From: Desulfobacterium sp.
Lineage (GTDB): Bacteria > Desulfobacterota > Desulfobacteria > Desulfobacterales > Desulfobacteraceae
Length of the DNA stretch: 64,000 bases
Direction: 5' to 3'
NCBI GenBank assembly: GCA_016342325.1
Contig: JAEINR010000008.1
Coordinates: 1-64,000 of the forward strand
The translations under genes were made by a program, and so were the position numbers. Shown here in pieces: positions 5,913 to 50,003 of this stretch. The notes under the pieces were generated by a model. The model ran no database searches. It was not told the origin of the DNA and saw nothing but the letters and a program-made list of their open reading frames with translations. How positions within the stretch are numbered: the stretch's first letter is position 1; each line of letters starts with the position of its first letter.

Positions 5913-6593
5913 TCAAGAACCGAAATTTTCCGCAAATTCCTGCAACTCCCCAATGCTCAGATTGCTTACCAGAGTGGCCAGGTCATATCCGTCCACATCG
6001 TTGTCCTTATCAAAATCCCCGAAAAATAAAGGTTCTGTGGTGTCAAATACGACCCGGCTGATTGCCATTCCCATGGCGGAGTAAATACTATAATATTCGT
6101 CATTATCAATGGTAAAGGAGACAAGGTTTTTCCACATGGGATCGGAAAAGGTTTCCAGGGACGACCATGCCACATTCTTTGCGGCAGAAGTCGTGATCGT
6201 GGTGCCGTCACCATACGCTAGGGTGAAGATAAGGTTGATATCGTCATATCCTGCAGCGCTTTTAATGCCTCCTCTCAGATCAAGAGAAACAAGATCAAAG
6301 GTGCCGCCGTCATCCCGTGTTATGGTATCAACATAGGACGTACTTGTACCAATTTCCTGACCCATATATGCCGAAGAACTGGTTCCTCTGTAACTAAAAA
6401 AATGGGATCCGTAGGGGGGCAGTTTATGGAACCCTGTAATGGTGAAGTTATCGGACCGGTAGCCCGGTTCTGGAAGAAAATGGATATATCCTTCTTCAAC
6501 AGGGATATCATCAAAATTCCAGGTGACATAATCCCCCCAGGCAACAGAAACGATACAACTTACCATGAGCAGGCATGATATTAGTGCTTTCAT
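5913..6593 (-). CDS. Secreted protein with C-terminal dockerin-like calcium loop
   Basis: 226 aa with a clear Sec signal peptide (MKALISCLLMVSCIVSVAWG, cut near residue 20). The body is beta-rich with aromatic residues and resembles no enzyme I know; spacing such as LVSLDLRGGI is reminiscent of PEP-CTERM-type extracellular beta-sandwich proteins. The C-terminus carries a single EF-hand/dockerin-like loop, GDFDKDNDVDGYDLATL (near residues 191-207), then a short helix ending in FG. The divergent gene at 7212 carries the same module, so the two are probably exported together. Function unknown; an extracellular or surface protein is inferred. Confidence 0.75.
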   Translation of the reverse strand: MKALISCLLMVSCIVSVAWGDYVTWNFDDIPVEEGYIHFLPEPGYRSDNFTITGFHKLPPYGSHFFSYRGTSSSAYMGQEIGTSTSYVDTITRDDGGTFDLVSLDLRGGIKSAAGYDDINLIFTLAYGDGTTITTSAAKNVAWSSLETFSDPMWKNLVSFTIDNDEYYSIYSAMGMAISRVVFDTTEPLFFGDFDKDNDVDGYDLATLVSNLSIGELQEFAENFGS

Positions 6594-7211: not shown

Positions 7212-9023
7212 ATGAAGCTTTTAATGAAAATCATTTTAATGGCATGTTGCATATTTTTAATTCTGCCGTACTGTGCAACGGCAGATGATGTCCGGGAACC
7301 TGTGCTGCTAAAGCAGATAAAATGGACAGGCACATCATGGTATGGGTCTCCTGTGATTCATGATCTGGGAACGGGCGAGCCTAAGCTGATCGGAACATTT
7401 TACTCCATATTTGTATGGGATAAAGACTTTAATCAACTGGCAAAGGTCCCCTATGGTTCAGGGTTTCCCCATAGGGGCCGTATTTATCCGCCGGCTGTGT
7501 GTGCGGATCTGGAAGGGGACGGCATCTTTGAAATCATTGTGGGGTCTACCCAGGGATCTGTGGCTGCCTATGAATGGCGGGACAACACCCTTTCCATAAA
7601 GGCCGGGTGGCCGGCAAGTGCCTGTGATGCAGGCCAGTGCCCTGAAGTGCGGGGAATGGCTGCAGATGATCTTGACAATGACGGTGATATTGAAATTATT
7701 GTGACGACCACCCAGACGAATAATGGCGCCCAGGTTTTTGTGTTCAATCCTGACGGATCATTATATCAACCCGTGGACCAGTCATGCCCTGCATGGCCCC
7801 GGTATCGTCAGGAACCCGGTCCTTGCGGGGATGCCCATGCCAATGGCCCGGGCAATCACGGATATGGGTGCTTTGGCCTTAATGTTGGGACGGGAAACCT
7901 GGATGATGACCCGGATAAAGAAATCGTTGTGACATTTGACAATCACCAGATTAATGTTTTTGATCCTAGGGGCAGCAGCATGCTTGCGTCAGATTATTTT
8001 ACCAACCGTTCTTTTGCGTATTCCGGCAACAGGCTCAACTGGGGCCAGTTTATACGCTGGTTTGATTTTAAGACTGAAAACCACCATTATCATCTGCATA
8101 CCAATGACTGGCCCCATCCTGTCTCAGACAAATGGATGCAATGGACAAGTTCCCCGCCCAATGTTGTGGATGTGAACCATGACGGGAAAAATGAGGTGGT
8201 TTGTGTGGCCAACGTAGAAAAGGACCTGCCCTATGATACCAAGCATCATTCAATCATGGTTCTGGAAGGATCTTACACCAACGGCCCACGAAGTGCCAGG
8301 CGGCTCCCCGGATGGGAGACGCTGCCCTCCTCGGGGTCTCCCCTGGACCGGGGTGATCGCACCTGGTACCCCCCGAGAAATCCGCCGGCCCCGGTTACCG
8401 TAAATATCTTGGGCGATGCCCGTCCGGAAACGATTTATGCCGCCCATGACGGTTATATTTACTGCACGTCCCCGTTGTCCCAGCTTTTGTGGGAATTTGA
8501 TTTTACCCATAACCGGGCCCTTATGTATGCATCTGAAGTCATGGTGGCAGACCTGAACCAGGACAATGTGCCGGAACTGGTCTTTACCACCTATGGCGAC
8601 CCGGAAAATATCACACCGGGTCAATCCCATGGCTATCTCATGATCCTGGACGCAAACGGCACCCCGCTTTTTGATATGGAACTGCCCCAACAGGGAACCA
8701 ATGGTAACGGCAAAGGAGCGCCAGCCGCCCCCACCATAATGGACTTGAACCAGGATGGTAACCTTGAGATTATTGTTCAGACCTTTGGCGCAGGAATGTT
8801 TATATACTCGGTTCCCGGGTCAGCTGAAAACCAGTTGCTTTGGCCGACAGGGCGGGGAAACTATCTTCGGAACGGCCAGGCATTTGTTGATATTGAATTG
8901 TTCAATTATGATCTGGACAGGGACGGGGATGTTGACGGCATGGATCTGACCCGATTTTCAAGCAGTGGGGCCGGTGTTGACGAGCTGCCCTTGCTGGCTG
9001 CTGGGTTTGGCAGACAGCGATAG
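7212..9023 (+). CDS. Secreted FG-GAP/VCBS beta-propeller protein with dockerin-like C-terminus
   Basis: 603-aa exported protein. Residues 1-24 form a signal peptide ending at ATA. The body has at least six FG-GAP-type calcium repeats of the form DLNQDGNLEIIV (for example DLEGDGIFEIIVGS, DDLDNDGDIEIIVTT, VDVNHDGKNEVVCV), expected to fold as an integrin-like beta-propeller. The last 40 residues hold a single dockerin-like loop, DLDRDGDVDGMDL, followed by a short helix and AGFG, nearly the same as the tail of the divergent protein at 5913-6593. GAGGGGAACCC precedes the ATG. Probably a surface or extracellular binding protein; ligand unknown. Confidence 0.85.
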   Translation: MKLLMKIILMACCIFLILPYCATADDVREPVLLKQIKWTGTSWYGSPVIHDLGTGEPKLIGTFYSIFVWDKDFNQLAKVPYGSGFPHRGRIYPPAVCADLEGDGIFEIIVGSTQGSVAAYEWRDNTLSIKAGWPASACDAGQCPEVRGMAADDLDNDGDIEIIVTTTQTNNGAQVFVFNPDGSLYQPVDQSCPAWPRYRQEPGPCGDAHANGPGNHGYGCFGLNVGTGNLDDDPDKEIVVTFDNHQINVFDPRGSSMLASDYFTNRSFAYSGNRLNWGQFIRWFDFKTENHHYHLHTNDWPHPVSDKWMQWTSSPPNVVDVNHDGKNEVVCVANVEKDLPYDTKHHSIMVLEGSYTNGPRSARRLPGWETLPSSGSPLDRGDRTWYPPRNPPAPVTVNILGDARPETIYAAHDGYIYCTSPLSQLLWEFDFTHNRALMYASEVMVADLNQDNVPELVFTTYGDPENITPGQSHGYLMILDANGTPLFDMELPQQGTNGNGKGAPAAPTIMDLNQDGNLEIIVQTFGAGMFIYSVPGSAENQLLWPTGRGNYLRNGQAFVDIELFNYDLDRDGDVDGMDLTRFSSSGAGVDELPLLAAGFGRQR

Positions 9024-18393: not shown

Positions 18394-19407
18394 TTAAGAT
18401 AGCTGTCTGCTGGTTTCTGCCTGAAGGGCGGCCATGCGGATCGCAGCAACCAGGCTCGACGGGTCTGCAACGCCTTTCCAAGCGATGTCATAGGCCGTGC
18501 CGTGGTCCACCGAGGTCCTGATGATGGGTAGTCCCAGGGTTGTGTTGACGCCGTCGCTGAAGTGGATCATCTTAAAAGGGATGAGTCCCTGGTCGTGGTA
18601 CATGCACACCACGGTGTCGAATTTGCCGTTTGCTGCGTTGAAAAACAGGGTATCCGGCGGGTAGGGGCCGGATACGTTGAACCCCTCGTCCCTTGCCCGG
18701 TCAACGGCAGGGGAGATGATCTCCTCCTCCTCGGTGCCGAACATGGCATCTTCCCCTGCATGGGGATTGAGGCCTGCCACGGCAATCCTGGGTTCCTTCA
18801 TGCCGAACCGCTCGGTCAATGCCGTTGAGGTGAGCCGGATGGTGTTGATGATCTCGTCCTGGGTTAACCCCGGCGCGACTTCAGAAAGGGGGATGTGGAT
18901 GGTAACAAGGACGACCTTGAGACGATCCCCCGCCATCATCATGGCCACCTTTGGGGTATTTGTCCGGTGGGCAATGAGTTCTGTATGACCGTGGAATGTC
19001 GATTCCGCAAGTTTCATGGCGGTCTTGGTGATGGGGCAGGTGGCAATGGCCTGAATCTGGTTGCCCATGGCAAGGTCAACCCCCCGGGTGATGTAGTCGA
19101 TCATGGCCCGGCCGGTTTCCGGGGTCGGTTCTCCCGGAGAGAGCCGCTTTGATTCAAGTTGGGACAGGGGCATGAGATCGATGGCGCCAAAGGTGTAACG
19201 GCCGGTTTCCGGGGCGGTTGTCCTGTGTATTGTAATAGGGCTCGCCTTGAGGGCCAGGGCGTGCTCCATGACGGATGGGTCCCCAAGGACCAGGGGTCGG
19301 CACCATTTGTACAGATCTGGCTGGTCAAGGGCTGAAACAATAATCTCCGGTCCGATTCCCACAGGGTCACCCATGGTGATGCCGATGACAGGACGTTTTT
19401 CGTTCAT
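18394..19407 (-). CDS. pdxA: 4-hydroxythreonine-4-phosphate dehydrogenase
   Basis: 337-aa enzyme of pyridoxal phosphate synthesis (DXP-dependent route): NAD-dependent oxidation of 4-phosphohydroxy-L-threonine. Seen: [14 protein letters not shown] at the N-terminus, the HGHTELIA metal-binding His, and the C-terminal [11 protein letters not shown] and [12 protein letters not shown] motifs with further metal ligands. Start at 19407 ([12 protein letters not shown]) has AAGGAG about ten bases upstream; the earlier in-frame ATG at 19482 adds 25 unlikely residues. First gene of pdxA-uvrA-tex, with a good promoter about 110 bases upstream. Confidence 0.95.
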
Positions 19408-19515
19408 GGGCCTAACGCTCCTTACGTTGCTTCGTTGAATATCTTGCCCGGCCCCCCTCTTGCTAAAAACGATGGTATTCATGCCTGGCCTTTTGTGCTT
19501 GAAAATCAGCTTTTA

Positions 19516-19544
19516 AGTATACTATTGGCAGGCGAGGGTGTAAA
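19516..19544 (-). promoter_or_regulatory. Sigma-70-type promoter for pdxA-uvrA-tex
   Basis: On the minus strand TTTACA (19539-19544), a 17-base spacer, and TATACT (19516-19521), about 110 bases upstream of the pdxA ATG. Confidence 0.65.
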
Positions 19545-20266
19545 CAAAAAATCCAAAATCAACCCTTGAATGCAGACACGGGGGATGGGTCGGTATAGGT
19601 AAATTTTTCATGGGATCTGTTTAGTTTTTGTCATAGATACATGCTCTTTTTTACCCCATTTCAGGTCTGCCGGAATACCGATAATTGTGCAACCATTTAT
19701 CGGTTCAGGCTTACATGTGGGTGTGCCATCTTGTGGTGTAGATATTGCACTGAACTATCTTAAATCGATCTTCTGAACGTTAAAAAAAAATACACCACTT
19801 GTGGAGCGGAAATGGAACGTCATTGGATCGAAATAATCTTCTTTGTGAAACCATTGAAAAAATTGTATCCTTGGGTGTTAACCTCGGAATGGTAAAAACA
19901 GGAGCTATTGGGAGAAAATCGGAGGAATTTGAAGAAAAATATTTTTCAAGATTTTTGGTACTACTCCTGGAATAGCGGTTATTCCAAGGGAATATAACCC
20001 CTTAGGGAAGTTGCTGTAATTAAAGGTAAAAGGCCTGTTTCACGAATTAAAACCCTGTAAAATCAGTGGATAGCCGTTAGGGTTGTGACAAACAATAATA
20101 ATTTTTTAAACAAAGGGTTATCAGATTTGACTTGGCGCATGAGATGGCATAGAAGAGACTACATTTTTATTCGTTTTGAATTGTGACTATGGCGTAACCG
20201 CCTGTGAATACACCCTTTCGGGGTATGGTATTAATGCTTAACATAAACAAAAGAGATCGGAGTTCC
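19545..20266. other. Long AT-rich region upstream of dnaA
   Basis: About 720 bases without a gene. Contents: a spaced inverted repeat TGTGGTGTA (19732-19740)/TACACCAC (19791-19798), the palindrome GAAAAATATTTTTC near 19934, a hairpin GGAATA/TATTCC around 19970-19986, and a possible promoter TTGACT (20127)-17 bp-TAGAAG (20150) for the DnaA gene. No perfect TTATCCACA box was found on either strand. A replication origin here is possible by position, but nothing in the sequence establishes it. Confidence 0.4.
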
Positions 20267-21682
20267 ATGGAGTCAAGCTGGGAAAAAGTTAAATTAGAGA
20301 TGAAACAATCTTTACCAGACCACAGTTACAGAATGTGGATTCAACCCATGGGTTATTTGGAATCAGGCACCGACGTCGTAACACTCTCCTGCCCCAATTC
20401 ATTTTCAAAGAGGCGTATCAGGGAGAATTATCTGGCGGGTTTGGAAGCCCAGTTCAAAAAACTGGGGTGGGCCGATACAAAAATTGATCTCATGGTTGAA
20501 ACTGCAACGGTTAAGAAAAAAACCGTTAAAAAAAGCAGCACAACAGCAGCGGCTGCGACAGGGGTCTACCCAGCTGTTTCAATAAATGTACCAAGAAGAA
20601 CAAACCGTCCAAGGCAAATGACGCTTCCCGGCCTCAACCTCAGGTCTGATAGCGGCAGAATGCTGAAAAAAGGGTATACCTTTGATCGCTTTGTGGTGGG
20701 GGATAATTGTGATTTTGCCTATTCGGCCGCCCTCTCCCTTGCCCAGCACGGATCGTCCAACAACGGCGCCCTGTACCTGCTGTCAGATACGGGTCTTGGC
20801 AAGAGTCATCTCTCCCAGGCCGTTGGGCACCATGTGATGTCCCAGGGGATTTCCGACAAGGTCTATTATGTGACGGCCGAGGATTTTACCAATGAGATGG
20901 TCTCGGCCCTCAAGGAAAACACAATCAGCAGATTTAAAGATAAGTACCGTAAAAAATGCGATGTTCTGATCCTTGAGGATGTTCACTTTCTTTCGGGGAA
21001 GGATGCCACCCAGAAGGAGCTCGCCATGACCCTGGACTATCTTCTGGATTCTGATAAAAAAATCATCTTCAGCGGGTGTTACCTGCCGGACGACATCCCC
21101 AAGATGAACGAACAGCTCAAGTCGAGGCTTACCCTGGGACTGGTTACAAAGATCGATACGCCGGATTTCAAGACCCGGGTGAAGATCCTCAAGAACAAGT
21201 CGAAATTCAATGATTTTATCATTCCCAACGATGTCACAGACTACCTTGCCCAGGAGCTTTGTGACAACGTAAGGCAGCTTGAAAGCGGACTTATGGGTGT
21301 TGCAAGAAAGGGCGCCCTCATGGGTGAAAAGATCGATATCAACCTTGCCCAGAGCGTGCTGTCCACCATTGCACGGAACCGGAAGGCGGTCACGGTTGAT
21401 TCCATCAAAAAGCTTGTGTGTACCGAGTACAGCCTTTCCGAGAATGAACTGGTCTCGCCGTCAAGGAAAAGGCGGGTTGTCAAACCCCGACAGGTGGCGA
21501 TTTACCTTTCCAGGAAATATACGGACCAGCCCTTGAAAAAGATCGGCAGGAGCTTTAACCGTTACCATGCAACAGCCATTTATTCCATCAATGCGGTTGA
21601 AAAGCAGTTGAAGCAGCAGGGTATTTTCAGCGAGCAAATGAACCATCTATATCGAAAGATCGAGTCGGGAAAGCTTAGATGA
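20267..21682 (+). CDS. dnaA: DnaA-type replication initiator, divergent
   Basis: 471-aa DnaA-family AAA+ protein. N-terminal oligomerisation domain (SYRMWIQPM near residue 20), a basic/low-complexity linker (about 80-120), AAA+ core with Walker A SDTGLGKSH (Lys179) and Walker B LILEDVHFL (Glu237-Asp238), and a C-terminal helix-turn-helix domain beginning VVKPRQVAIYLSRKYTDQ. Usual DnaA has GDHTTV in the signature helix; here it reads RYHATAIYS, and the Walker A lacks the usual GG. Start at 20267 has GGAG five bases upstream. It overlaps glcD by four bases and is not beside dnaN or gyrB. Either the main initiator of this lineage or a paralogue. Confidence 0.85.
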   Translation: MESSWEKVKLEMKQSLPDHSYRMWIQPMGYLESGTDVVTLSCPNSFSKRRIRENYLAGLEAQFKKLGWADTKIDLMVETATVKKKTVKKSSTTAAAATGVYPAVSINVPRRTNRPRQMTLPGLNLRSDSGRMLKKGYTFDRFVVGDNCDFAYSAALSLAQHGSSNNGALYLLSDTGLGKSHLSQAVGHHVMSQGISDKVYYVTAEDFTNEMVSALKENTISRFKDKYRKKCDVLILEDVHFLSGKDATQKELAMTLDYLLDSDKKIIFSGCYLPDDIPKMNEQLKSRLTLGLVTKIDTPDFKTRVKILKNKSKFNDFIIPNDVTDYLAQELCDNVRQLESGLMGVARKGALMGEKIDINLAQSVLSTIARNRKAVTVDSIKKLVCTEYSLSENELVSPSRKRRVVKPRQVAIYLSRKYTDQPLKKIGRSFNRYHATAIYSINAVEKQLKQQGIFSEQMNHLYRKIESGKLR

Positions 21683-23055
21683 CCCTTCCCGATTCGTTGT
21701 ACAGAGAATTGGAAAAGATAACGGGCTCCGCCGGGATCACCACTGATCCCGAGGAGCTCGTTTGTTATTCCTTTGATGCAACGGCCCGTTCCTTTCTCCC
21801 GGATATTGTCGTCTTTCCCTCCTCAACCCTCCAGGTTTCAAAGATCCTTGAACTTGCCACCCGGCATTCAGTTTGCGTGACCCCCAGGGGGAGCGGCTCC
21901 GGCATGACCGGTGGAACCCTGCCCGTCAAGGGTGGGATTGTCATGGTGATGACCCGGATGAACCGGATTGTGGAGATTGATACGGAAAATCTCGTTGCCC
22001 GGGTCGAACCCGGTGTTGTGACGGGAGACCTCCACCGTGCTGCGGAAAAGCAGGGGCTTTTCTATCCGCCTGACCCGGCAAGCTCCGCCTTTTGCACCAT
22101 TGGCGGAAACATCGGCGAATGCGCCGGTGGTCCCCGGGCTGTCAAGTACGGCGTGACCCGGGATTATGTGCTGGGGCTCGAGGCGGTGTTACCGTCCGGT
22201 CAGATCATCAAAACCGGTGTGAGTACGGCCAAGGGTGTGGCCGGCTATGACCTGACCCGGCTCATCGTGGGGTCGGAGGGAACCCTGGCCGTGGTGACCG
22301 GTATTATCTTGAGGCTTGTTCCCCTGCCCGAAGCGGTCAAAACCATGTCCGCCGTGTTCAATAGCATGAAAACAGCCGCGGAAACGGTTTCCGGAATCAT
22401 CCGGGAGTCGGTGGTGCCCCGGTGTATTGAGTTTGTGGACCGGGCGTCCATTGATTGTGTCAGGGAAGATATTGACCTTGATCTGTCCTCCGATGTCCGG
22501 GCCATACTGATCATCGAGGTGGACGGTACTGCCCAGACCGTGGCGGCTGATACCGTAAAATTGGAGCGTTATTGCCTGGATAAAGGGGCGTCAACCGTTG
22601 TGATTGCCCAGACACCGGCAGAGGCAAAAGAGCTCTGGAAGGCCAGAAAAGCACTCTCTCCAGCGCTTTTCAAGATCGCTTCCGGCAAGCTGAACGAAGA
22701 TATAGTGGTGCCCATCAGCCGGATTCCGGAGATGGTGGCCAGGATAGAGTCCATTCAGGAGCGTTCCGGGCTTACCATTGTCAGTTTCGGCCATGCCGGG
22801 GATGGGAACATCCACTGCAACATCATGTACGACAAAAGGGACAAGGATCAACTCCAGCGGGCCGAGGCCGCCGTGGACGAACTCTTTGACGCAACCCTGG
22901 CGCTTGGGGGAACCATCACGGGTGAACACGGGGTGGGGATCACGAAGCAGAAATACCTCAGCCGGGAGATCGGTGATACGGAACTTGCGGTTATGAAGGG
23001 GATTAAAAAGGTGTTTGATCCCGGGAATCTGTTGAATCCCGGGAAGATTTTCTAG
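21679..23055 (+). CDS. glcD: FAD-linked oxidase, GlcD/D-lactate dehydrogenase type
   Basis: 458-aa flavoprotein of the VAO/PCMH family, oxidising a 2-hydroxy acid such as glycolate or D-lactate. Seen: FAD-binding TPRGSGSGMTGGTLPVKGG (about 72-90), GGNIGECAGGPRAVKYG (148-164), and the C-terminal GHAGDGNIHCN and GTITGEHGVG motifs with metal and substrate histidines. Full length for GlcD. The ATG overlaps the dnaA stop (ATGA), so the two are co-transcribed. No glcE/glcF or iron-sulfur partner is in view. Confidence 0.93.
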   Translation: MTLPDSLYRELEKITGSAGITTDPEELVCYSFDATARSFLPDIVVFPSSTLQVSKILELATRHSVCVTPRGSGSGMTGGTLPVKGGIVMVMTRMNRIVEIDTENLVARVEPGVVTGDLHRAAEKQGLFYPPDPASSAFCTIGGNIGECAGGPRAVKYGVTRDYVLGLEAVLPSGQIIKTGVSTAKGVAGYDLTRLIVGSEGTLAVVTGIILRLVPLPEAVKTMSAVFNSMKTAAETVSGIIRESVVPRCIEFVDRASIDCVREDIDLDLSSDVRAILIIEVDGTAQTVAADTVKLERYCLDKGASTVVIAQTPAEAKELWKARKALSPALFKIASGKLNEDIVVPISRIPEMVARIESIQERSGLTIVSFGHAGDGNIHCNIMYDKRDKDQLQRAEAAVDELFDATLALGGTITGEHGVGITKQKYLSREIGDTELAVMKGIKKVFDPGNLLNPGKIF

Positions 23056-47117: not shown

Positions 47118-47822
47118 TTATTTTTTTAGGTTTCTTCTGCCGACTGCTGCAAAACCGAGGAGCCCAAGGCCAAGGAGGAGCATTGGGGCCGGTTCTGGTG
47201 TTGGGATGATTTCTACATCGTCCAGAAAACCCCCTAGGGTATTTTCAATTCCAGTGGCTGAGAACATAAGCTCATAATCTGCTGCTGTTTCAACGTTAAA
47301 TGAATAGCTATATTCAAGCCAGTCCATAAAATCGTCTCTCACTCCATCAGCGCTGCCGGAGAGTAGCGGATCTTCTTGAGGGGTGAGATTGCTGTTATAT
47401 ATCCAAAAATCTATGCCATTGTCATTGGGGGTATGGGTTCGAGCCATATACCAGAAAGAAAGGTTATACATGCCGCGGTCTAAAAAAACAGTTTGCGTAA
47501 TAGAACTGTTAGAGTTTGGATAAGGGTGGCTGTCGAGTTCTACATAAAAATTCTGGGAATGAGCCTGGACAACAGTATTATATTGAATTTCAACTCCTGA
47601 ATCACTATCGCCGGAGCGCCATCCCTCAATGGAGTCATATACATCCCATTGCCCGGATACCATCTCATCTAGTTTGATTTTATTGACGAGACCTTTATCC
47701 GGAGAATAGTTTTGTATACTGTCAAAGTTTCCGTTCACTAATGGTAATGCGCTTGAGGTTCCTGCAATACCAGCCAATATGGATGTAAACAAAAATATTA
47801 CAAGTAATTTTTTCATTTTCAT
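47118..47822 (-). CDS. PEP-CTERM exported protein, DUF642-like
   Basis: 234 aa. Signal peptide (about 1-25), a beta-sandwich body like DUF642 (LVNGNFDS, GWRSGDSDSGVEIQYN, FYVELDSH), and a C-terminal PEP-CTERM sorting tag: PTPEPAPM, hydrophobic GLGLLGFAAVG and basic RRNLKK. Such tags are processed by exosortase and usually accompany exopolysaccharide production. No exosortase gene is in view. Start at 47822 with AAGGA five bases upstream; the frame's earlier ATG at 47849 is weaker. Final location probably outside the cell or in the biofilm matrix. Confidence 0.85.
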   Translation of the reverse strand: MKMKKLLVIFLFTSILAGIAGTSSALPLVNGNFDSIQNYSPDKGLVNKIKLDEMVSGQWDVYDSIEGWRSGDSDSGVEIQYNTVVQAHSQNFYVELDSHPYPNSNSSITQTVFLDRGMYNLSFWYMARTHTPNDNGIDFWIYNSNLTPQEDPLLSGSADGVRDDFMDWLEYSYSFNVETAADYELMFSATGIENTLGGFLDDVEIIPTPEPAPMLLLGLGLLGFAAVGRRNLKK

Positions 47823-48260
47823 GTGTCCTTTCAACCCTAGCGAAGACAAACAAACCGTCTTCCCATGGTTCCTTTGAGGTTCTCGTCCATATTTCTGTAA
47901 CCGTTCTGCCTTTGTTATCTATTGAATAACCAATAGCAATGAATATGCCAGTATCTTGAAAGTTGGGGTAAGTTGCTGAATTGGTAGGGAAATATAGGGC
48001 AGGGTGTGCCGTGTTTGTTTTATGCTATTGTTAAAGTGTTACGTTTAGTAAATAAAAAGGCCTACTTTATGTGTTTTTATGTAAAAAAGGTAACATATTC
48101 GGTCTTGAACAACGCATATTGTGATAATAGTCTGATGTTTTTGGAAACACATAGGAAGGTAAGCCATAAAAAAATCCTTTTTTGCACCAGCGTGGCCCTG
48201 AATGGAGACACCCTGGGTAAAAAGGATATTTAAAGCTTAAGTAACTGAAATGATAGTTTT
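47823..48260. other. Intergenic region upstream of the PEP-CTERM gene
   Basis: About 440 bases. Short frames only. Looked for the -24/-12 sigma-54 pattern often found before PEP-CTERM genes: GC and CC pairs near 47999-48010 have the wrong spacing (8 instead of 10). Nothing else recognised. Confidence 0.35.
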
Positions 48261-48336
48261 TGGTGGAGCTGAGGGGGATCGAACCCCTGACCTCATGGCT
48301 GCCAGCCATGCGCTCTCCCAGCTGAGCTACAGCCCC
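48261..48336 (-). tRNA. tRNA-Ala (GGC), copy 1
   Basis: 76 bases including encoded CCA. On the minus strand: acceptor GGGGCTG pairs with CAGCTCC; D arm TAGCTCAGCTGGGAGAGC; anticodon stem CATGG/CCATG with loop CTGGCAG, anticodon GGC; T arm with GGTTCGATCC. Identical in sequence to the copy at 49928-50003 and about 1.67 kb from it. Confidence 0.97.
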
Positions 48337-49927: not shown

Positions 49928-50003
49928 TGGTGGAGCTGAGGGGGATCGAACCCCTGACCTCATGGCTGCCAGCCATGCGCTCTCCCAGCTGAGCTACAGC
50001 CCC
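49928..50003 (-). tRNA. tRNA-Ala (GGC), copy 2
   Basis: Base-for-base identical to copy 1 (48261-48336), 76 bases with encoded CCA and anticodon GGC. The stretch just after its CCA on the minus strand (AAAACTGTC) and the promoter side also resemble copy 1. Confidence 0.97.

Follow-up and report, generated by a model that had tools for sequence, protein, structure and literature searches.

DnaA boxes are, to our knowledge, thought to be nearly universal and are used for automatic origin finding. According to published accounts, the DnaA helix that starts at residue 434 reads the TnCACA half of the box and Arg399 reads the TTA half (PMC5742627), with base contacts made by residues 432-435 and 438-439 (PMC5043019), and in the basal unwinding system (BUS) the box is followed by a spacer with a length peak at 10-13 bp that often contains a second, weaker box (PMC8287927). 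The window analyzed here is the whole 64,000-nucleotide stretch of Desulfobacterium sp. DNA from contig JAEINR010000008.1 (G, L and C numbers below denote genomes, loci and contigs; the window lies on contig C56 of the 6,674,045-base, 205-contig assembly G000, with 99.99% completeness and 4.36% contamination), and its subject is a divergent dnaA gene at 20267-21682 together with the AT-rich region upstream of it. The best overall explanation, to which a probability of roughly three in four is assigned, is that this divergent protein, as the sole DnaA of the cell, acts in trans on an origin at dnaN-gyrB that carries TTWTNAACA boxes, and that the region upstream of dnaA is regulatory.

The protein resembles the DnaA family described by TIGR00362 in possessing all domains, in matching the profile over its full length above the cut-off, and in having 8btg as its best structural match, but it differs in a recognition motif that lacks one residue and has Tyr and Ala in place of Asp and Thr, in a P-loop Ser, and in a tree clade of its own. 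DnaA of Thermotoga maritima (2z4r) aligns without a gap at the motif (FNRSHPVV) and its box is also unlike TTATCCACA (ACCTACCAC, PMC10316083); however, it differs in the box itself and in lineage, and has Ser in place of the Tyr of the window. A class-wide box change is also described for epsilonproteobacterial DnaA, where it is credited to changed helix-5 residues (PMC5043019), but the epsilonproteobacteria fix T at position 5 (core TTCAC), whereas in the order of the window it is position 6 that has C replaced by A, with loss of the Asp/Thr pair. The sequences found upstream of dnaN share with BUS (PMC8287927) a box, a 12-nt spacer that includes a second, weak box and in many cases a C-rich end, and TTA/TTG triplets, which correspond to 3'-AAT-5' or 3'-AAC-5' on the other strand and keep the middle A as in BUS; they differ in that the box is TTWTNAACA and lies at dnaN, apart from dnaA, and in that the published trio consensus is 3'-GAT-5'. 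The origin of Escherichia coli, oriC, is likewise unlinked from dnaA (PMC8287927), but in the present case the likely origin remains with dnaN-gyrB and it is dnaA that has moved off, apparently order-wide. A search of one literature library returned no paper joining "DnaA box" with Desulfobacterium autotrophicum, or oriC and DnaA with Desulfobacterota, which does not exclude a description in print.

A divergent subfamily of DnaA

The gene at 20267-21682 encodes a genuine full-length DnaA, the relevant features of which are as follows.

20267-21682, + strand: dnaA, ATG at 20267, stop at 21682, 471 aa; the only DnaA gene found in the assembly
20783-20809, + strand: P-loop SDTGLGKSH, in which Ser replaces the first Gly of the usual GGxGLGKTH
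21554-21580, + strand: recognition motif FNRYHATAI (aa 430-438) at the start of the domain IV helix; counterpart in 8btg, GGRDHTTVI

An alternative upstream start, GTG at 20204, would give 492 aa. The product scores 389.7 bits against TIGR00362 (cut-off 343.9) and covers profile positions 1-437 of 437, with DnaA_N (PF11638), Bac_DnaA (PF00308) and Bac_DnaA_C (PF08299) all above their cut-offs; domain I, the AAA+ domain III and the helix-turn-helix domain IV are present according to Pfam, an AlphaFold2 model and Foldseek. The model, which was built from 18 sequences (mean predicted local distance difference test score 74.6, predicted template modeling score 0.49), matches best the B. subtilis origin-opening complex 8btg. 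The original prediction had left it conditional whether this is the only DnaA: a PF00308 profile search of the assembly gave one match and a PF08299 search gave two, the second of which falls in a 359-aa frame on contig C65 without a PF00308 match, so that one DnaA, and no second, canonical dnaA, was found in the assembly.

Both peculiarities first noticed in this protein, RYHATAIYS and SDTGLGKSH, are present. In the alignment to 8btg, GGRDHTTVIH corresponds to N-RYHATAIY, which is one residue shorter; the canonical FGGRDHTT is replaced by FNRYHATA, the canonical motif GRDHTTV is absent (N-RYHATA), and the helix of the model spans residues 434-449. The Walker A pattern GxxxxGK[ST] is likewise absent, as SDTGLGKS has Ser for the first Gly and retains GKS, and the relatives are alike in this. 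Since TIGR00362 also includes the T. maritima protein with FNRSHPVV, the motif mismatch rules out the canonical subtype, not DnaA.

For the order comparison, the best 80 of 185 loci from a scan of named genomes were used (91 to 48% identity; titles with Desulfobacterales or broader labels and one Desulfarculaceae), and the two incomplete loci L070 and L083 were left out of the recognition-motif count. Residue 433 is Tyr in 73 of the 78 readable relatives, Gln in four and Lys in one, and likewise Tyr in 19/19 DnaA loci read from 18 genomes, while the P-loop TG[LM]GKSH occurs in 73 of the 80 relatives and a variant form in the other seven. In an alignment of 18 DnaAs from the order, hardly any variation is seen at R432, Y433 and A435, and none at H434, T436 or the P-loop residues G176, G178, K179, S180 and H181. 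By this comparison the odd motif and P-loop are clade traits, not local decay, and the protein, initially taken to be unusual, is ordinary for its kind.

In a phylum-wide draw, DnaA was found at E < 1e-60 in 115 of 118 genomes, with scores falling into two groups (about 475-591 and 255-447 bits). Fifty of these loci were read: the 30 best-scoring ones carry [KR]DH[ST]T, mostly as GG[KR]DHST, and the 20 chosen from the low-score group have mostly short motifs (NRDHST, NRSHAT, NRNHAT, NRHHAT, RDHAT) and P-loops of the form xTGLGK[ST]H. In a 71-row tree with a midpoint root and several very long branches, the window and 37 others form one clade (support 100/98), inside which the window and 20 sampled relatives are nested as a clade (100/99), and the canonical rows are weakly supported as a clade (88/26). 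Some genomes, among them five named here, have two or more DnaAs, one canonical-looking and one divergent: in G170 and G250 both types were identified by motif, whereas G154, G186 and G214 have one copy with a divergent motif and another with a high score, the motif of which was not read; the phylum also includes genomes with the canonical type alone and with the divergent type alone. On our reading the divergent DnaA may be an old paralogous or transferred copy, the canonical one having been lost later in the order, and the divergent subfamily appears to be the only DnaA in Desulfobacterales.

Boxes, trios and GC skew at dnaN

A conserved block, uvrA-pdxA-dnaA-glcD-hflX-dnaB, recurs whole or in part over the order, with a glcD-like gene downstream of dnaA in 60 of the 80 relatives (some loci being incomplete), and dnaN was found at none of the 80 in the fetched dnaA flanks, which extend up to 5 kb per side and are shorter in some. 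As originally noted, dnaA does not adjoin dnaN in the window either; dnaN of the same genome is located on contig C130, directly followed by a gyrB-like frame. The origin apparently stays with dnaN-gyrB and dnaA has left it throughout the order.

Boxes were counted in the 600 bp upstream of dnaN in 25 family genomes, and five Desulfobacter-type genomes (genus g8) were counted separately; G052, with a broken dnaN frame, and G047, with 171 bases upstream, were left out of these counts, and G060 (L269) out of the order set. The consensus of the arrays, TTWTNAACA (TGTTNAWAA on the other strand), is one base, C to A at position 6, from the textbook TTWTNCACA. It is present in 78 copies in 22 of the 25 family genomes (6.7 in shuffled sequence), whereas the classical TGTG type, with C at position 6, has five copies (2.8 shuffled), TGTC 23 (2.2) and TGTA seven (4.5). 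The tenth base is C in 49 boxes of the TGTT type, versus 1.0 in shuffled sequence, and in none of the classical type. The density of TGTTNAWAA is 5.2 per kb before dnaN versus 0.25 per kb over 120 other stretches (2.07 Mb) taken from the order, and three boxes within 300 bp precede dnaN in 20 of the 25 genomes; the background clusters include L174 and L318, which lie 1.4-1.9 kb before dnaN, so that genuine background clusters number fewer. Before dnaN of 29 other-family genomes, the density is 2.6 per kb, and 5/29 have three boxes in 300 bp. In the usual family layout, TGTCAATAAC near -400 is followed by two inverted boxes with a separation of 17-18 bp near -285/-270, then by more boxes and by one near -150. 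A similar arrangement recurs in many of the 29 other-family genomes, where the pair is found near -196/-179 and the last box near -58. The genome of the window carries nine boxes at C130:65009-65691, arranged as two copies of a module of an 11-bp tandem plus inverted boxes, and three more.

A strict pattern of box and DnaA-trios (TTWT.[AG]ACA, 2-26 nt, at least four [CT]T[AG]) is found in 14 of the 25 family genomes, always with a 12-nt spacer, and in none of 30 shuffles; with C or T at position 6 it never occurs. In the spacer, TATGAACAC-CCC is in keeping with the second weak box of the published BUS spacer, and in several other families a CTTATT-rich sequence was seen by eye after the last box.

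From these data a probable mechanism is proposed, in which the divergent DnaA is the replication initiator of the cell and works in trans, on an origin that is distant from dnaA itself. It would bind the TTWTNAACA arrays upstream of dnaN-gyrB, spread from the last box over the DnaA-trios, and melt the DNA as in BUS. Both binding of the origin boxes and origin unwinding by the DnaA of the window are predictions. The box change most likely occurred because the helix that reads the CACA half was altered (GGRDHTT to N-RYHAT); the residues that differ and the base that differs map to the same half of the recognition, a correlation that is consistent with Y433 and A435 being the cause.

GC skew flips at dnaN in some single-contig genomes and not in others. 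In the window, all 2-kb bins between 2 and 64 kb have positive skew apart from the 42-44 kb bin, and there is no flip at dnaA. The best complete relative, G017, belongs to the same genus (5,589,073 bp, record starting at dnaN); its sampled skew stays positive from the record start up to about 2.9 Mb, apart from the 0.94 Mb sample, and is negative beyond that point, apart from the 4.5 Mb sample. Finer sampling of G017 in 4-kb bins places the flip at dnaN (-0.038 in the last 20 kb, +0.023 in the first 20 kb), with values near zero again at 60-100 kb, and its dnaA, at 2.11 Mb, is surrounded by a skew of +0.04 to +0.09. A skew shift at dnaA, as an origin there would give, is seen neither in the window nor in G017. 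From the 20 kb before to the 20 kb after dnaN, the skew also turns from negative to positive in G108 (-0.014/+0.033), G111 (-0.033/+0.023) and, weakly and with outer stretches opposite in sign, G117 (-0.054/+0.021). In G046 the coarse skew change falls within 3.9-4.2 Mb; its dnaN is located at 4.26 Mb and its dnaA at 1.80 Mb. The parB gene, considered as an origin marker, was uninformative, as its distance from dnaA, where the two genes share a contig, varies between about 32 kb and 1.6 Mb. Apart from the dnaN array, G017 contains four TGTTNAWAA boxes, including a 17-bp inverted pair, at L168 5897-6092 (about 5.455 Mb, about 134 kb from dnaN), which could be a DnaA-titrating or second site.

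Several observations weigh against an origin at dnaN with A-type boxes. TGTTNAWAA is absent from the 600 bp before dnaN in 5/5 g8 genomes (G022, G032, G042, G046 and G057), as is the strict box-trio pattern (0/5), and the Desulfobacter-type origin seems to have moved. The coarse skew minimum of G057 lies near 0.15-0.5 Mb, far from both dnaN (5.72 Mb) and dnaA (3.43 Mb), so either its origin has moved or the skew misleads; no flip at dnaN is present in G068 (-0.052/-0.011) or G115 (+0.011/-0.017), the skew of G033 is noisy, and that of the chromosome of the window is not readable in a 205-contig draft. The strict box-trio pattern is found in one of the 29 other-family genomes, not above the shuffles, which reach one, and the 14 genomes with the pattern do not include the genus of the window (G000, G008 and G017); in G000 the trio-proximal box is degenerate, and a TTA-rich run follows the degenerate box in G000 and G017. 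One TTWTNAACA also occurs at 20104, before dnaA of the window, at a group-wide frequency that is at chance. Boxes of the C type are kept near some dnaN genes (G106 TTATCCACA, G088 TTATGCACA and G117 CTTTCCACA), and A-type boxes are well over G and T types in the outgroup, in which 48 kb upstream of 34 mostly canonical DnaAs of the phylum has 42 C, 23 A, 4 G and 2 T at position 6, counted without a shuffle (the set takes in L361, L363, L365 and L368, though the motifs of L361 and L368 differ). That TTWTNCACA is the commonest type in this outgroup speaks for a shift in the order; the retained C-type boxes and the commonness of the A type in the outgroup make that shift a preference and not absolute. 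At 16 divergent loci of the phylum, position 6 is C in four, A in five, G in one and T in one box in 22.6 kb upstream.

The alternative that survives best is that TTWTNAACA is the site of another protein, such as a regulator of dnaN-gyrB, and that DnaA still uses scattered or degenerate classical boxes. The few loci that retain C-type boxes fit it, and so does the fact that binding of TTWTNAACA by DnaA is itself a prediction from sequence, which tells against the trans-acting scheme. However, classical boxes are near chance, the geometry of box, 12 nt and trios matches that of published BUS (spacer peak 10-13, PMC8287927), and at 35 other loci of the order these A-type boxes are also over-represented in front of dnaA (31 TGTTNATAA, 3.0 shuffled), as expected under DnaA autoregulation. 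Another protein at these boxes is accordingly regarded as improbable.

Element E and the region upstream of dnaA

The intergenic region upstream of dnaA and its flanking genes contain the following features.

18394-19482, - strand: pdxA-like gene, divergent from dnaA over the intergenic region
19843-20044, + strand: element E, bounded by inverted GTGAAAC/GTTTCAC boxes about 192 bp apart
19843-19852, + strand: left box of E, TTGTGAAACC; GTGAAAC invariant in 37/37 aligned
19900-19939, + strand: four 10-bp repeats (aggagctatt gggagaaaat cggaggaatt tgaagaaaaa) with phased A/G tracts
20002-20026, + strand: conserved block of E, ttagggaagttgctgtaattaaagg in the window and AGTTGTCGAAGTnGTTGTAATTT as the majority of alignment A1
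20036-20043, - strand: right box of E, TGTTTCAC on the + strand and GTGAAACA on the - strand
21679-23055, + strand: glcD-like gene for an FAD-linked oxidase, overlapping dnaA by 4 bases (ATGA, 21679-21682)

The sequence-level description in the original prediction was borne out: 19545-20266 is 722 bp long and has a GC content of 0.381 (whole window, 0.512), an imperfect inverted repeat, GGTTATTCC/GGAATATAACC, was seen by eye at about 19977-19998, the overlap of dnaA with the glcD-like gene exists, and no 9-mer in 19483-20266 is within one mismatch of TTATCCACA (three are at two mismatches). The over-represented 9-mers that were to be looked for here did not appear, as no 9-mer occurs more than twice, and with this sequence alone thus uninformative, comparison with the relatives was needed. 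Of the features of an oriC, neither a skew flip, nor a box cluster, nor a trio run is found upstream of dnaA in the window, and the strict pattern detects no trios in 19483-20266. The suggestion that boxes and origin may be non-canonical therefore divides: the box is likely non-canonical, as TTWTNAACA before dnaN, but skew, boxes and trios speak against the 720 bp before dnaA as the origin. This AT-rich stretch is instead probably the promoter and regulatory region of dnaA.

For the upstream comparison, loci were grouped by relatedness into the family-level group of the window (L004-L045, L070, L073 and the window) and the rest (43 versus 35 loci), and those with under 300 bases upstream were excluded (L012 and L030 among them). 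In the group of the window, TGTTNATAA occurs three times before dnaA versus 4.1 in shuffled sequence, in contrast to the enrichment in the 35 other loci given above. As box counts are at chance in one group and enriched elsewhere, DnaA-box control of dnaA seems to have been exchanged for E, which in the proposed scheme would stand in the place of the boxes. At other loci of the order (e.g., L049, L062 and L076, at about -165 of dnaA), GGTTTGACA occurs, mostly once per locus. The candidate second box type GTCAAACC was rejected, since it reads GGTTTGACA, with TTGACA like a -35 element, and is mostly present once per locus.

The top 9-mer in the 1-kb regions upstream of dnaA at 78 loci is GTTTCACAA, with 53 copies in 40 loci versus 1.7. 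The two boxes of E are inverted, with a separation of 190-197 bp; the outer lies about 410-670 bp and the inner about 215-470 bp upstream of dnaA (L006 was left out of these measurements), and the pair is present in 42 of the 43 loci of the group of the window (missing in L020) and in 0/35 other loci of the order. In alignment A1 (37 rows, without L010, L033, L038 and L040), the right box is GTTTCAC in 33 rows and GTTCCAC in four. Genome-wide, GTGAAACN{181,203}GTTTCAC was found in 43 of 59 family genomes, of which three (G037, G039 and G043) look like chance by eye, compared with 14/59 for the reversed control. In the genome of the window, the pattern and the reversed control each occur once, and TTGTGAAACC alone is mildly raised (21 versus 13 in the control). 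A 65-bp stretch between the boxes has a 10-bp periodicity in 37 relatives, with z values for G of 13.4 at lag 10 and 11.8 at lag 20 and for A of 12.0 and 9.2, A being also high at lag 5; these values are inflated because the rows are related and the shuffles preserve single letters only. The phased repeats suggest bent DNA. To the left of the left box there is little conserved sequence, which bears on divergent promoters reading outward from the E boxes.

The E boxes were rejected as the DnaA box of the order, since the pair is limited to one group of dnaA loci and absent from the dnaN arrays, and E probably binds another factor, not DnaA; a regulator bridging the two boxes is our guess. Second, diverged E-like elements were noticed by eye at G058:C605:30157-30355, G015:C18:1975-2170 and G004:C22:69208-69403. 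In G042, three tandem dnaA genes lie about 2.4 kb apart at C2:4079412-4085672 (L288 and L298), with an exact-pattern E pair before the second and third copies.

Slightly less probable than another protein at the dnaN boxes is that E is a structured RNA, either a small RNA or a dnaA leader, closed by a stem of GTGAAAC and GTTTCAC. The + strand of the window does fold with this closing stem (z -1.9, other strand -0.7), pair 14-221 is U-A in 29/37 and U-G in 8/37 rows, and the first pair outside the box forms in 26/37. However, none of seven predicted pairs has a compensatory change, pairing falls to 6-10/37 further out and 0-22/37 further in, pair 18-217 is broken in 4/37, the mean z over the 37 rows is similar on both strands (-1.1 and -1.3), and Rfam gives no gathering-score match there, only four weak ones far below it. 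The more specific identification of E, which resembled a closed RNA of 200 nt, as 6S RNA was rejected on the last ground, on the lack of covariation, and because the 6S RNA of this genome is on contig C136.

In E. coli oriC, the strong boxes R1 and R4 flank low-affinity sites, which offers a parallel for reading the E region as the origin, with two strong inverted boxes and phased low-affinity sites. This least probable of the alternatives would draw on the presence of E in 42/43 close loci, its AT-richness, near-fixed inverted spacing and phased repeats, on TGTTTCACA, which differs from TTWTNCACA at a single position and has the TTCAC core in common with the boxes of epsilonproteobacteria (PMC5043019), and on the exact-pattern E in 6 of 11 g8 genomes, the examined g8 members being without a dnaN array, but it is unlikely given the positive skew either side of dnaA in the window and G017, the lack of a strict-pattern trio run in 19483-20266, and the near absence of TGTGAAAC from the dnaN arrays (one copy in 25 genomes).

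Evolutionary reading and significance

The trans-acting scheme can be extended into a tentative history, which is rated a little short of even odds: the order would have lost the canonical DnaA, kept the paralogous subfamily, and re-coded box position 6 together with the helix (D433 to Y, T435 to A), and one group would have swapped autoregulation for E with a regulator of its own.

Elsewhere in the window, two tRNA genes at 48264-48336 and 49931-50003 (- strand) have equal Rfam scores and lie 1.6 kb apart. Secreted-looking proteins were noticed by eye at 47118-47849 (- strand), 5913-6593 (- strand) and 7212-9023 (+ strand), one with a PEP-CTERM-like tail and two with dockerin-like D-x-D-x-D motifs.

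If the proposal is true, neither searches with TTATCCACA nor the rule that places the origin at dnaA would find the origins in an entire order of sulfate reducers. The order would then offer a natural experiment in the co-evolution of initiator and box, including genomes that carry both DnaAs, and the series within the phylum, from canonical alone through both to divergent alone, could serve as a test of the joint change of initiator and site. Element E, for its part, is a compact, conserved module before the initiator gene.

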